Part shown: positions 30,703 to 40,220 of the stretch, piece after piece | Numbering within the stretch: the first letter of the stretch is position 1 | Layout of the letters: every line of letters starts with the position of its first letter | Assembly (NCBI GenBank): GCA_025356655.1 | Contig: JANXRW010000001.1 | Coordinates: forward strand, 1 to 64,000 | DNA length: 64,000 nucleotides | Direction: 5' to 3' | Origin: Betaproteobacteria bacterium | GTDB taxonomy: Bacteria; Pseudomonadota; Gammaproteobacteria; Burkholderiales; SHXO01 | Translations under genes and position numbers: made by a program | The notes under the pieces: generated by a model | The model's input: only the letters and a program-made list of their open reading frames with translations | Told to the model about the DNA's origin: nothing | The model's database searches: none

Positions 30703-33700
30703 TTAAGCGGGCTCCAATTCCAGTCGGCCGCGCAGGCGCGCGGCCGTATCCATCAAGACGCGGCGATACTCCGTAGGCATGACCTTGACGAACTTGGCGC
30801 GGAAACCCGACCAGTCATCCAGGATCTCTCGCGCTCGCTCGCTGCCGGTGTAATGATGATGGCGGGCGATCAAGCCACGCAACTGAGACTCCTCGGCGCT
30901 ACTTAGGTGATCCACTTGCACCTCGCCATGGGTGGCCAAGTCTCCTCGTTCGGCGGGATCCAGGCCGGCATCCTCCTCGGGCAGGGGTTCCAGTTCCACC
31001 ATGGCCAAGTTGCAGCGCGCCTCGAAGTCCCCGTTTAGGTCGAGCACGTAGGCCACGCCGCCGCTCATGCCGGCGGCGAAGTTGCGCCCGGTGTTGCCGA
31101 GAACCACCACGGTGCCGCCGGTCATGTACTCGCAACCGTGGTCGCCCACGCCTTCCACCACCGCTGTGGCGCCGGAATTGCGCACGGCGAAGCGCTCGCC
31201 CGCGACGCCGCGGAAATAGGCCTCGCCCGAGACCGCCCCGTAGAGAACGGTGTTGCCGAGGATGATGTTCTCCTGCGGCTTGCCCCGAAATCCCGCCGGC
31301 GGCCGAATGATCACGCGCCCACCCGAGAGGCCCTTGCCCACATAGTCGTTGCCATCGCCAACGAGCTCAAGCGTGATGCCGCGCGCCAAAAAGGCGCCGA
31401 AACTCTGCCCAGCCGTCCCGTTTAGCCGGATGTGGATGGTGGCGTCGGCAAGGCCTCGATGCCCATAGCGCCTAGCCACCTCACCCGAGAGCATGGCCCC
31501 CACCGTACGGTTGGCGTTGCGGATAGGCAACTCGATGCGCACCGGCCGGTGCTCCTCGAGGGCCGGGCGGGCCATCTCCATAAGCCGGTGGTCTAGGGCA
31601 CCCTGCAGGCCGTGGTCCTGGCTTTCTTGATGCCGACGCGCCACTTGAGGAGGCACGTCGGGGCGATGGAAGATACGGCTGAAATCCAGACCGCGCGCCT
31701 TCCAATGCTCCACGCCCTGGCGGGTATCGAGGAGGTCCGAGCGGCCCACGAGATCCTCGAAGCGCCGCACGCCCATAGAGGCCATGAGTTCGCGGATCTC
31801 CTGGGCGATAAAGTGAAAGAAATTGATGACGTGCTCGGGCCTGCCGGCGAACTTTCGGCGCAGTTCCGGATCCTGGGTGGCCACCCCGACGGGGCAGGTA
31901 TTCAGGTGGCACTTGCGCATCATGATGCAGCCTTCCACCACCAGAGGGGCTGTAGCGAAGCCAAACTCATCAGCCCCAAGCAAGGCACCGATGACCACGT
32001 CGCGGCCCGTCTTCATCTGCCCGTCCACCTGCAGGGCAACTCGACCGCGCAGCCGGTTCAGGACCAGGGTCTGCTGAGTCTCCGAGAGCCCGAGTTCCCA
32101 GGGAGAGCCGGCGTGCTTGATGGAGGACCAAGGCGATGCCCCGGTGCCGCCATCGTGGCCAGCGATGGTCACATGGTCCGCCTTGGCCTTCGCCACGCCT
32201 GCCGCCACCGTTCCCACCCCGACCTCGGAGACCAATTTCACACTGATTGAGGCACGCGGGTTGGCGTTTTTAAGGTCGTGGATGAGCTGGGCCAAGTCCT
32301 CGATAGAGTAGATGTCGTGGTGGGGCGGTGGTGAGATAAGGCCCACCCCCGGCACGGAGAAGCGCAGTTGGGCGATGTAGGCGGAGACCTTGTGCCCTGG
32401 GAGCTGGCCACCCTCCCCGGGCTTCGCACCCTGAGAAATCTTGATTTGCAACTGGTCGGCGTTGGCGAGGTACTCCGCGGTAACGCCGAAGCGGCCTGAG
32501 GCGACCTGCTTGATGCGCGAGCGGAGGGAATCACCCGGCTCGACGGGCACCTCAGCGACAACGCTGCTGATGCGCGACTTCAGCGTCTCACCGTCCTGCA
32601 GGGGCAGGTAGCGCTGCGCATCCTCGCCACCTTCGCCCGTGTTGGACTTGCCCCCCAGCCGGTTCATGGCGATGGCGAGCGTCGTGTGCGCCTCGGTGGA
32701 GATCGACCCCAAGGACATCGCGCCGGTTGAGAAACGCTTGACGATCTCCGTCCACGGCTCCACTTCGTCAACGGGGACCGCCGCTCCGGCGGGCAGAATC
32801 TCGAAGAGTCCGCGCAGCGTCATCAGGCGCTTACCCTGGTCGTTGATCAGACGCGCGTACTCGCGGTACGTAGCATAGCTGTTGGCTCGAGTGGCATGCT
32901 GAAGCTTGGATACCGACTCCGGCGTCCACATGTGCTCCTCGCCGCGTAGGCGTAGGGCATAGTCGCCACCGGCATCGAGCATGCCGGCGAGAACGGGGTC
33001 ATTGCCGAAGGCACGCAAGTGCGTGTCGATGGCTTCGCGGGCCACTTCGGGCAGGCTCACGCCTTCGATATTGCTGGCGGTTCCCGTGAAATATCGAGCC
33101 ACGAACGCGCTGTTGAGCCCTACGGCCTCAAAGATCTGCGCGCCACAATAGGACTGGTAAGTGGAGATGCCCATCTTGGACATCACCTTCAGCAGCCCCT
33201 TGTCCACGGCCTTCACGAAGCGCTTCTGCGCCTCCTTGGCGGCCAAGTCACCGGGGAGCATGTAGCCCATGTGGCCCAGGGTTTCCAGAGCGAGCCAGGG
33301 GTGGATGGCTTCGGCGCCGTAGCCCGCCAACAGCGCGAAATGGTGCACCTCGCGCGCCGAGCCGGTCTCGACCACCAGCCCGGTATTGGTCCTCAGCCCG
33401 GCTCGCACCAGATGATGATGGGTGGCTGCCGTTGCAAGCAGTGCAGGAATCGCCACCCGCTCGGCGCTCACCATCCGGTCCGAGAGCACGAGGATGTTCA
33501 CGCCCTCACGCACCGCCTGCTCGGCGCTCGCGCACAGAATCTCCAGGGCGCGCTCCATGCCTGCCGGGCCGTCGGCGGCCGGGCAGCAGATATCGAGCAT
33601 GCGCGCGCGCAGCCGGCCACCGGTGAGTTCGTCCAGGCGCCGGATATTCTCCATCTCCTCGGCGACCAGGATCGGCTGCGCGGCCTCGAGGCGTAACGTG

Positions 33701-35382
33701 GGCTCCACCTCGTCAAACCCCAGGAGGTTGGGCTTCGGCCCGATGAAGGACACGAGCGACATGACCAGTTGTTCCCGAATCGGGTCGATGGGCGGGTTCG
33801 TGACCTGAGCGAAGAGCTGTTTGAAATAACTGTAGAGCGGCTTTAGCTTGTTCGAGATGACCGACAGCGGCGTGTCGGTTCCCATGGAACCGATGGCCTC
33901 TTCGCCCGACACCGCCATGGGCTGGAGTAGAAACTTCAGGTCCTCTTGGGTGTACCCGAAGGCTTGCTGCAGGTCGAGCAGGGGCCGGCCTTCCGCATGC
34001 CCGACCTTGGCCGCCGGCAACGAGGAGAGCAGGATGCGGTTGCGCTCGATGAGGCTCTGGTACGGGCGCGCGCAGGCCAGTCGCTCTTTGACTTCGCCGT
34101 CGGAAATGATGCGCCCCACTTCCAGATCCACCAGCAGCATCCGCCCCGGTTGGAGTCGCCATTTCTGGACGATGCGTTCCTCGGGGAAGCTCAACACGCC
34201 CATCTCCGAGGCCAACAGCAGGTGATCGTCGTCCGTGACCAGATACCGGGCAGGGCGCAGACCATTGCGGTCGAGCGTGGCACCGATCTGCCGACCGTCG
34301 GTGAAGGCCACGGCGGCCGGCCCGTCCCAGGGCTCCTGCAAGGCGGCGTGATACTCGTAGAAGGCCCTGCGCTGCTCATCCATCAGGGGGTTGCCGGCCC
34401 ACGCTTCCGGGATCAGCAGCATCATCGCGTGCGCCAGGGAATAACCTCCGGCCACCAGCAACTCGAGCGCATTGTCAAAACAGGCGGAGTCCGACTGCCC
34501 CTCCACGATCAACGGCCACAGCTTCTCCAGGTCCTCGCCCAGCAGGGTGGAGCGCATGGCGGCGTGACGGGCGGCCATCCAGTTGATGTTGCCGCGCAGC
34601 GTATTGATTTCCCCGTTGTGGGCGATCATCCGGAACGGATGCGCCAGATCCCAGGTGGGGAAGGTGTTGGTGGAGAAACGCTGGTGCACCAGGGCCAGGG
34701 CCGAAACCAGTTCCGGGTCACGCAGATCGGCGTAATACTCGCCGACCTGATGAGCAAGGAGCATCCCCTTGTAGACGACGGTGCGTGAGGACAGCGACGG
34801 CATGTAGAAAGTGCCCCAACCTTCGGGCCGCGCGGCGCGCACCGCATGCTCGATGCGCTTGCGGATCACGAAGAGTTTCCGCTCGAAGGCGTCCTGGTCG
34901 GCCGCCCGAGGCCCGCGGGCGATGAACACCTGCCGCACGTGGGGCTCCACGGCGCGAACGCTCTCGCCCAGACCTGCGTTCTCTGTGGGCACGTCCCGCC
35001 AACCCAACACGACCTGCCCCTCCAGCCCGACGATTTCCGCCAGCAGCGCCTCGCAGCGCGCCCGCCCAGCATCGTCACGTGGCAGGAACACCATTCCCAC
35101 GGCGTACTGCCCCACCGACGGAAGGGAAATTCCCAGCTTCGCCGCTTCCCGGCGCAGGAACGCGTCGGGGATCTGCAGAAGCATACCCGCCCCGTCCCCG
35201 GCCAGAGGATCGGCCCCGGTCGCCCCGCGATGCGTCAGGTTCTGGAGGATCTCCAAGCCTTGCTCGACAATGGTATGGCTCTTCCTGCCCTTGATATTGG
35301 CAATGAAGCCCACGCCACAGGCGTCGTGTTCGTTCGCCGGGTCGTAGAGACCCTGCCTGTCGGGTCGAGATGGATGGGACAC
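30703..35382 (-). CDS. gltB: Glutamate synthase (NADPH), large subunit
   Basis: 1559 residues from GTG 35382. Transfers glutamine amide nitrogen to 2-oxoglutarate. The N-terminal amidotransferase nucleophile is Cys22 (EHDACGVGF), exposed after removal of a 21-residue propeptide. A central domain follows, then the FMN/synthase domain ([33 protein letters not shown]). The 3Fe-4S cysteines are around 1143-1156 ([13 protein letters not shown]). A GXGXG beta-helix domain lies at the C-terminus. The GTG has AGAGGT at 6 bases and fits the family start; the frame runs on to 35526 but through a leader hairpin. Confidence 0.95.
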
Positions 35383-35508
35383 TTCGCACCTCTCGTGCAC
35401 GTTACGGTTGAACAAGCATTGCGGGGACTGCGCCGCAGGATCGAGATGGGCGGGGCCCTGATCCGCCACGTTCGCGGGAGGATCCGTCAAGATACCGATG
35501 CCCAACGG

Positions 35509-35546
35509 CCCGGGGATAGCCAGCACGCTTTCTGGCTATCCCCGGG
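35509..35546. repeat. Perfect 15-bp hairpin in the aroB-gltB gap
   Basis: Arms 35509-35523 and 35532-35546 (cccggggatagccag with its exact complement) enclose an 8-base loop. No T-run follows on either strand, so it is not a standard intrinsic terminator. It lies 66 bases past the aroB stop and 127 bases before the gltB start. It may separate the aro and glt messages, stabilise an mRNA end or act in gltB control. Confidence 0.85.
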
Positions 35547-37334: not shown

Positions 37335-39476
37335 TCAGCGCGTGAAGGTGGCCTCGCGCAGGATCTTCGGGGTGATGAAGATGAGCAGTTCCGTACGGTT
37401 GTTGCGCGAGCTCTCCTGACGGAACAGGTAGCCGAACAGGGGAATGTCTCCGAGCAGCGGAACCTTGGTCACGGAGGTGGCGGTATCTTGAGTAAAAATC
37501 CCACCGATACTGACGGTGCCGCCGTTTTCCACGAGCACTTCCGTGTTCACCTGTTTCGTGTCGATGGCGGGACCTGCGGTGGTATCCGTGCCACGGCTGT
37601 CCTTGTGCACTTCGAGCTTCATAATCACGTTGTCGTCCGGCGTAATCTGGGGCTTTACCTTAAGGCTCAGCGTGGCCTTGCGGAAGGACACGTTCGTCGC
37701 CCCGCTGCTGGTGGCCTGCTGGTACGGGATCTCCGTGCCCTGCTCGATGATGGCCTCGACGTTGTTGGCGGTGATCACGCGTGGACTGGAGATGACCTTG
37801 CCGCGTCCATCGGCCTGTAGTGCGGAGACCTCGAGGTTGACGAAGCGGGTCAGGCTGGGGTTGAAGAGCGTGATGGCGAACTGGCCCGGGTTGGCGCCGT
37901 TCAAGCCGGCAGCCGGCAGGTTCACGCTGTAGGAGTCCGGAAAGAAGCTCGTGGGATAGTTCTGAGTCTGCCCCGTCTGTACGCCCACACTCTGCGTGTT
38001 ACCACCGGGCATGATGCGCACATTCCCGCCTAGCGCCGCCGCCGGATTGATGCCGCCGGCGGTGAAGCCAAGGCGCGCCCCGAGGTTCTTGGCAAAGTTG
38101 TCCTGCGCCTCCACGATGCGGGATTCCACCAGCACTTGGCGCACGGGGACATCGATCTGCTTGATCAGACCGCGGATCTCCTCGAGCTTGGAGGGCGTGT
38201 CCTGCACGAAGAGCGTATTCGTGCGCACATCCACTACCGCACTACCGCGCTTGGACAGGATTTTCTGTGCGTTGTCGGATATCAGCTTTTGCGCGAGCTC
38301 CGCCTTCTGGTAATTGAGCTGGAAGCTCTCCGTGCGCACCGGCTCGATTTCGGAGATCTGCTGCTGGGACTCCAGAGCCAGCTTCTCCTTGGTGGCCAGT
38401 TCGTCGCGCGGCGCGATCCAAATGACGTTGCCACTCTTGCGCATGTCCAGACCCTTGGCGGTCAGGATGATGTCGAGCGCCTGATCCCAGGGAACATCCT
38501 TGAGACGCAAAGTGAGATTGCCCGAGACGCTGTCGCTCGTGATGATGTTGAGACTAGTGAAGTCAGCGATGACCTGCAGGACGGCGCGCACTTCCACGTT
38601 CTGGAAGTTCAGCGACAATTTGTCCCCGGTGTAGCCCGTCTTCGCCCGGTTCGCCTGTTTCTGCTGCTCGGTGATGGGCTTGACCTCGACGATCAGGCGC
38701 GTGTCGGTCTGGTAAGCAGCCTGTTCCCAGACGCCCTTGGCCTGAATGGTCACCCGCGTCTTGTCGGGGAGGCTCTGCGCTTCCACCTGCTCCACGGGCG
38801 TGCCGAAGTCCTTGACGTCGTAGCGACGCTGCAAGGCGGCCGGCAGTTGGGCTTGCAGCAGGTCCACGATGATGGTGTGGCCCTGCTGCTTGATGTCGAT
38901 GCCCGTGCCCGCGTCCGCCAAGTCGATAACCACCTGGCCCTCACCGTTACGCCCCCGCCGGAAGTCGAGCTTGCGCACCGCGTGGGGTTGCTGGGACGGC
39001 GTGGGGTCGGCGAAGTGTGTAGTGGACTCGGTGGGACCGCCCCCGGGCGCGGCCGCGGCCAGCGTGAGGAGCACCGTACTGCCATCGAGCTTGGTAGTGA
39101 ACTTGGCTGGGCGCGCGAGGTTGAAGACGACCCGCGTGCGCGAGGCGCTCTGGCCGAGCCGCACGCTGCGCAGGTCGCCCTCAGCGATGTCCTGGGTGTT
39201 TTTGCCCAAGGCGTTCACGGTATTGGGAAAATCCAGCACTACCCGTGGGGGGCTGGTAAGGCTGAAGGCGGCGGGTACGGCCGCGAGCGGGGCGTGCAGT
39301 CTCAGCTTGGCGGTGACCTGCCCCCCTTCCGTGCTCACTTCGATAGCGTCGATGGAATTCTGCCCGTCCGCCAGGGCCTTGGCAGCATCCGCCGCCGCTG
39401 CCGGCGCCAGCCCGATCACGAACAGGGCACTGGCCAGGAGCAGGCCTCGCACGAGAGCGACCTTGGGATGGGTCAT
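37335..39476 (-). CDS. pilQ: Type IV pilus secretin PilQ
   Basis: 713 residues, signal peptide 1-28. Forms the outer-membrane channel through which the pilus emerges. Two AMIN domains (about 35-140 and 165-270) contact peptidoglycan. The N0/STN-like and N1 domains follow (LNFQNVEVRAVLQVIADFTS and the FQLNYQKAELAQKLIS region). The secretin domain covers about 480-710, with VPLLGDIPLFGYLFR near the end. The start ATG has GAGGAAGAGG at 8 bases; that ribosome site is itself part of a decayed copy of the pilP 3' end. Confidence 0.96.
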   Translation of the reverse strand: MTHPKVALVRGLLLASALFVIGLAPAAAADAAKALADGQNSIDAIEVSTEGGQVTAKLRLHAPLAAVPAAFSLTSPPRVVLDFPNTVNALGKNTQDIAEGDLRSVRLGQSASRTRVVFNLARPAKFTTKLDGSTVLLTLAAAAPGGGPTESTTHFADPTPSQQPHAVRKLDFRRGRNGEGQVVIDLADAGTGIDIKQQGHTIIVDLLQAQLPAALQRRYDVKDFGTPVEQVEAQSLPDKTRVTIQAKGVWEQAAYQTDTRLIVEVKPITEQQKQANRAKTGYTGDKLSLNFQNVEVRAVLQVIADFTSLNIITSDSVSGNLTLRLKDVPWDQALDIILTAKGLDMRKSGNVIWIAPRDELATKEKLALESQQQISEIEPVRTESFQLNYQKAELAQKLISDNAQKILSKRGSAVVDVRTNTLFVQDTPSKLEEIRGLIKQIDVPVRQVLVESRIVEAQDNFAKNLGARLGFTAGGINPAAALGGNVRIMPGGNTQSVGVQTGQTQNYPTSFFPDSYSVNLPAAGLNGANPGQFAITLFNPSLTRFVNLEVSALQADGRGKVISSPRVITANNVEAIIEQGTEIPYQQATSSGATNVSFRKATLSLKVKPQITPDDNVIMKLEVHKDSRGTDTTAGPAIDTKQVNTEVLVENGGTVSIGGIFTQDTATSVTKVPLLGDIPLFGYLFRQESSRNNRTELLIFITPKILREATFTR

Positions 39477-39684
39477 GTCTTTACCTCTTCCTCAATCAAA
39501 TCCAGGGTTTTGCCGCGTCGGCCCCGACTGCGCGGGTATCGGCGCTGGCGCCCTGACCGAGGCCCTCCACCCGCCGATGTGACTCAAATCCGGCGAAGTC
39601 TTGGCCCACATAGTTGCCCTTGTCTACTCGCTTCCTAGCGCTGTCCACGGCCCAGATTTCGGCTGGGCCGTGGACGGGCATCAT
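39477..39684 (-). pseudogene. Decayed partial duplicate of the pilP 3' end
   Basis: The 207 bases between pilP and pilQ read like a second, broken PilP C-terminus. One frame opens at an ATG overlapping the pilP stop (TAATG) and gives about 62 residues, including IWAVDSARKRVDKGNYVGQD; true PilP has RWALIKTPENSLYKITAGNH then LGQNF. A different frame at the end gives TLDLIEEEVKT, matching ALQLIEEEGKK of PilP. The two matches are in different frames, so the copy has at least one frameshift. The 62-residue frame (39496-39684) may still be translated by coupling. Confidence 0.55.
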
Positions 39685-40220
39685 TATTTCTTGCCCTCTT
39701 CCTCGATCAGTTGCAGCGCGGTCTCCCGCTCTGCCCAGCTGCCATTGGCGTCTTCCACGAGTTCCTTGACCGTCACCTGAGACTCGGTAATGGCTTTGAC
39801 TTCGCCAAAATTCTGTCCGAGGTGATTGCCTGCCGTGATCTTGTAGAGCGAGTTCTCGGGCGTCTTGATGAGCGCCCAGCGCTTCTGGGACCGTTCCAGG
39901 GTCCCCACCATCTTCAGACTCTCCAAGGGATAGCCCTCCAGAGCCTCCTTGGGACGCAGTCGATGGCGCTCGGCCTCCTGGCATGCCTTGCAGTCGGTCG
40001 GAGGCTTGGCACCGGCGGTCGAATGCGGCTGGAAGGGGTTGGGCAGATCGAAGGCGTCATATTTGATCTCCTGGACGGCCTTCATCTGTGGCAGCGGCTC
40101 CACTCGCCCGCGCATCCCTTCGCTGGATTTTTCGACGAACTGCTTGAGGTCGTCGAACTCCCCGGTCCCGCAACCAGCCAGGACCAAGCAAACGCATAAG
40201 GCAAGTCGGCGGCTCAGCAT
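39684..40220 (-). CDS. pilP: Type IV pilus lipoprotein PilP
   Basis: 178 residues. Lipoprotein signal with lipobox L-V-L-A-G-C (Cys17) anchors it in a membrane. The disordered segment after it contacts PilN/PilO, and the C-terminal beta domain (about 100-170, LESLKMVGTLERSQKRWALI) docks on the PilQ N0 domain. Length is typical. It lies 4 bases after pilO. A decayed copy of its last 60 codons follows it. Confidence 0.95.
   Translation of the reverse strand: MLSRRLALCVCLVLAGCGTGEFDDLKQFVEKSSEGMRGRVEPLPQMKAVQEIKYDAFDLPNPFQPHSTAGAKPPTDCKACQEAERHRLRPKEALEGYPLESLKMVGTLERSQKRWALIKTPENSLYKITAGNHLGQNFGEVKAITESQVTVKELVEDANGSWAERETALQLIEEEGKK

Follow-up and report, generated by a model that had tools for sequence, protein, structure and literature searches.

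PilP (PF04351) is a lipoprotein of the type IV pilus. The part of Neisseria meningitidis PilP that binds PilQ has been mapped to the beta1-beta2 hairpin with which the C-terminal domain opens, and it is this hairpin that contacts PilQ N0 (PMC3441751). At the pilP-pilQ junction of Burkholderiales the two genes can overlap by ATGA, with the Shine-Dalgarno (SD) sequence of pilQ inside the tail of pilP. Bacterial operons can also hold gene-fragment pseudogenes that arise by partial duplication or recombination; a literature search on bacterial gene remnants returned nothing specific.

Here we analyse a stretch of 64,000 nucleotides (the window) from the draft genome of a Burkholderiales bacterium (165 contigs, 69% complete), in which a sequence-only reading had noticed a broken second pilP 3' end between pilP and pilQ. 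We refer to the intact gene as copy 1 and to the second end as copy 2. Copy 2 shares with PilP the G-N-Y-x-G-Q-[ND]-F core motif and the acidic tail, but has no lipobox, linker, beta1-beta2 hairpin or continuous frame, and is invisible to Pfam. As at such a Burkholderiales junction, it shares ATGA with pilQ and contains the SD in its pilP tail, whereas the end of the intact pilP lies 207 nt farther upstream. Like known gene-fragment pseudogenes it is truncated, carries indels, is colinear with an intact neighbour and occurs in one lineage, but unlike them it includes the region where translation of pilQ, an essential pilus gene, starts.

Results

Layout of the pilP-pilQ region

The genes pilM-pilN-pilO-pilP-pilQ-aroK-aroB lie in this order on the minus strand of the window (names were assigned from the translations of the open reading frames and the usual gene order, with Pfam confirming PilP). 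The pilP product matches PF04351 over residues 24-171 (E 5e-46) and finds PilP in a search of the PDB, and the gene terminates in AAATAATGATG; pilQ starts with ATGA at 39476. The linker of this PilP also has an additional stretch bearing a C-x-x-C motif (DCKACQEAERHRL; 39970-40005, minus strand), which is missing from the three congeners.

The gap between pilP and pilQ is unusually long compared with the junctions of relatives. In the congeners G001-G003 and most of the other relatives whose junction was read, pilP either runs into the pilQ start (ATGA) or stops a few tens of bases short of it. Wherever the junction was read there is one pilP end beside pilQ, an order-wide profile search showed no adjacent second pilP copy, and the relic is absent from the congeners. 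Two apparent tandem cases were rejected: in G168 the two PilP pieces lie on two contigs and match different parts of the profile, as in a gene split by the assembly, and in G207, a genome of the same order as that of the window, the second PilP match is weak and on another contig. This G207 match (contig 51, 5115-5312; L069) is to the PilP C-domain, lies far from the main pilP and is perhaps a paralogue.

Table 1 Features of the pilP-pilQ region, all on the minus strand.
Feature	Position	Strand	Description
pilP (copy 1)	39684-40220	-	intact; encodes 178 aa with a lipobox and a complete PilP domain
pilP-pilQ gap	39477-39683	-	207 nt
62-codon open frame	39496-39684	-	coupled to the pilP stop via TAATG
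Perfect inverted repeat	39643-39675	-	13 bp, 7-nt loop; at the copy 1/copy 2 junction, right arm in copy 2 (WAVD part)
Copy 2, pilP 3' end remnant	39473-39630	-	RVDKGNYVGQDF to the TGA overlapping the pilQ ATG; profile and global alignment
Conserved core of copy 2	39595-39630	-	RVDKGNYVGQDF, 36 nt; profile 62.9, 0/300 shuffles
Terminal part of copy 2	39473-39505	-	LDLIEEEVKT-stop; -1 frame with respect to the core; shares 76% identity with the pilP end
pilQ Shine-Dalgarno	39484-39493	-	GAGGAAGAGG, within copy 2 and 7 nt ahead of the pilQ ATG; anti-SD duplex -7.7 kcal/mol
pilQ	37335-39476	-	intact, 713 aa, 67-69% identical to congeners

The gap contains a degraded pilP 3' end

We searched the gap with a frameshift-tolerant PilP profile made from relatives only, with the pilP of the window excluded. 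The match at the core greatly exceeded both the dinucleotide shuffles (mean 25.3, sd 4.1, maximum 41.8) and the 145 other pieces of the window (maximum 35.1). When the gap was aligned directly with the pilP 3' end, the Smith-Waterman score was equalled by 1 of 1000 dinucleotide shuffles, with the terminal 31 nt 77% identical, and global alignments of copy 2 with six pilP ends (that of the window and those of five relatives) beat all 500 shuffles each time. Thus profile, local and global comparisons each find a likeness beyond chance, confirming that the gap holds the decayed remains of a second pilP 3' end. The middle of copy 2, about 89 nt, is hardly recognisable (13 of 500 shuffles for the window's own pilP, 63-306 of 500 for relatives), and in an HMM search of the whole genome the relic is the second-best place with an E-value of only 0.27. 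On inspection, the short GC-rich matches between this middle part and other genes, in this genome or related ones, appeared to be due to chance.

Copy 2 is colinear with the intact end. From RVDKGNYVGQDF to the stop it spans 158 nt (counting its TGA, with the end at 39473) compared to 159 nt in copy 1, which bears out the similar spacing first noticed. The shift between frames is also as described: GNYVGQDF is read in the frame that opens with the TAATG-coupled ATG (39684) and LDLIEEEVKT (39505-39476) in the -1 frame. Since core and tail are in different frames, the continuous reading frame has been lost and copy 2 is broken. It is also truncated: upstream of roughly the WAVD position no pilP likeness can be made out. 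Like pilP in the congeners, it ends in ATGA at the pilQ start. A mobile or dispersed repeat was rejected: neither the gap nor the arm of the junction hairpin (Table 1) has a further copy in the genome, the arm having been sought as a perfect match. Copy 2 is a pseudogene fragment of an ordinary kind, specific to this lineage.

The two pilP ends are strongly diverged

Although copy 2 is pilP-derived, calling it a second copy goes too far if this is taken to mean a simple duplicate of today's pilP end. Its core, which at 12 codons is too short for a tree, shares only 15 of 36 nt with the window's own pilP (11 of the 12 third positions differ), such that the high identity expected of a recent tandem duplication is absent, whereas 24-28 of 36 nt are shared with the closest pilP genes of other species (24 with each of the three congeners, up to 28 with other families). 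Alignment scores for the whole of copy 2 rank G002 (18) and G003 (10.5) above the own pilP (7). We note that copy 1 is itself unusually divergent, with a mean identity to relatives of 0.60, the lowest in the set, and the low likeness between the copies may therefore stem in part from copy 1.

The core of copy 2 differs from working pilP genes at 3.7, 1.5 and 7.0 sites at the first, second and third codon positions, a pattern like that among working genes, and its second-position value against relatives (1.52) lies within their range (1.3-2.7). This spread suggests that the copies acquired most of their differences at a time when both still encoded protein, which counts against a recent tandem repeat and in favour of two diverged alleles having been combined. 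Judged by these comparisons, copy 2 is probably the remnant of a diverged pilP allele.

That the pilP 3' end was duplicated in tandem long ago within the lineage, with decay of copy 2 and rapid drift of copy 1 afterwards, is an unlikely but serious alternative. Such a duplication would fit the tandem position of the copies and their tails, which share ATYGAGGAAGAGG and are 76% identical over 33 nt, compared to average identities of 0.59-0.64 for either tail against congeners and near families; however, constraint on the SD can account for the likeness of the tails, and the core is much closer to each congener than to copy 1. The neighbouring genes were also compared. pilN, pilO, pilP and pilQ are all genus-like, the current pilP C-terminus being 62% identical to that of G003, while the core of copy 2 is nearer to other species than to copy 1, and no discordance indicative of a foreign block was seen in pilM-pilQ. 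Because the pilP C-terminus is genus-like and no neighbour looks foreign, these genes point to no particular donor of a recombined allele, and the old duplication keeps its minor share of the probability.

The 62-codon open frame

The sequence-only reading had also pointed to a 62-codon frame, which is present and overlaps the pilP stop as TAATG, and had proposed that it yields a short peptide resembling the PilQ-docking part of PilP. Copy 2 starts downstream of the beta1-beta2 region and has no counterpart of LKMVGTLE; since it lacks this PilQ-binding surface, a docking peptide appears unlikely. A Pfam search with the 62-aa product gave no PilP domain, and AlphaFold2 predicted no fold (pLDDT 56, pTM 0.14), which, the model having been run with no alignment, is weak evidence. 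The codon-usage score of the frame (0.19 per codon) is below that of all 62-codon chunks of the neighbouring genes (minimum 0.26) and above 97% of off-frame chunks, as expected for decayed coding sequence.

These data also bear on whether the frame is a working small coupled gene, either a co-opted leader that relays ribosomes from pilP to pilQ in place of the lost ATGA overlap, or the source of a PilP-like peptide. We consider both forms very improbable: the TAATG coupling, the stop some 20 nt ahead of the pilQ ATG and the codon usage relative to off-frame chunks would suit them, but no real gene chunk scores so low, the domain, docking strands and fold are missing, the frame is found in no relative, and an open frame of at least 60 codons arises in 14% of shuffles.

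The junction hairpin

At the junction of the two copies lies a perfect hairpin, the second strongest in the window, which may have been left by the event that joined them. We weighed two other accounts of the gap in which this hairpin figures. A functional RNA structure that sets the level of pilQ, with the pilP likeness as incidental debris, would be suggested by the length and strength of the perfect stem; however, the hairpin lacks a T-run, scans of the pil strand of the gap gave no terminator or promoter, no Rfam family was found (only a sub-threshold match), and the structure has no second genomic copy and is absent in relatives, making this account extremely improbable. That the assembly joined the pilP ends of two strains is very improbable, too. 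The genome is a draft and the hairpin resembles a chimeric join, but the copies have no long exact word in common on which an assembler could join them, and the pilP end of a second strain would be intact rather than decayed.

The strongest hairpin of the window, a perfect 15-bp stem (CCCGGGGATAGCCAG...CTGGCTATCCCCGGG; 35509-35546), lies elsewhere, beside aroB, either at the beginning of a large open reading frame (30703-35526) or immediately in front of it.

The pilQ ribosome-binding site lies within copy 2

The SD of pilQ falls inside copy 2, as first noted. In close relatives it is written into Glu-rich codons at the end of pilP (GAAGAGGAG), and in the congeners, too, it lies within the pilP tail. 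After the core, the tail is the best-preserved part of copy 2, and it is best conserved where the SD sits. Selection on the pilQ start site would explain this preservation, and the last 30 nt of the relic are probably constrained.

Discussion

We think it somewhat probable that the gap is a scar of recombination or duplication in which two diverged pilP 3' ends once stood in tandem, the downstream one now being a relic. For the order of events, the donor and the reason for retention, we infer the following. The lineage would once have had both ends in tandem, most likely through recombination of another pilP allele, from the same wider group, into the operon. The upstream end would have become, or stayed, part of a full gene, while the downstream end would have lost its 5' part and gained indels, leaving a non-coding relic. 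The relic would have been kept for its last 30 nt, which form the translation start region of pilQ with the SD within Glu codons of the old pilP tail. The likeliest role of copy 2 is a passive one, and it probably survives because it carries the pilQ ribosome-binding site.

The relic is real, but it is ordinary genome wear and no new system. It offers a small, clear case of gene turnover in an operon, in which the end of an old gene stays because the ribosome-binding site of the next gene lies within it, and the locus would be suited as a simple test of whether translational coupling between pilP and pilQ matters.
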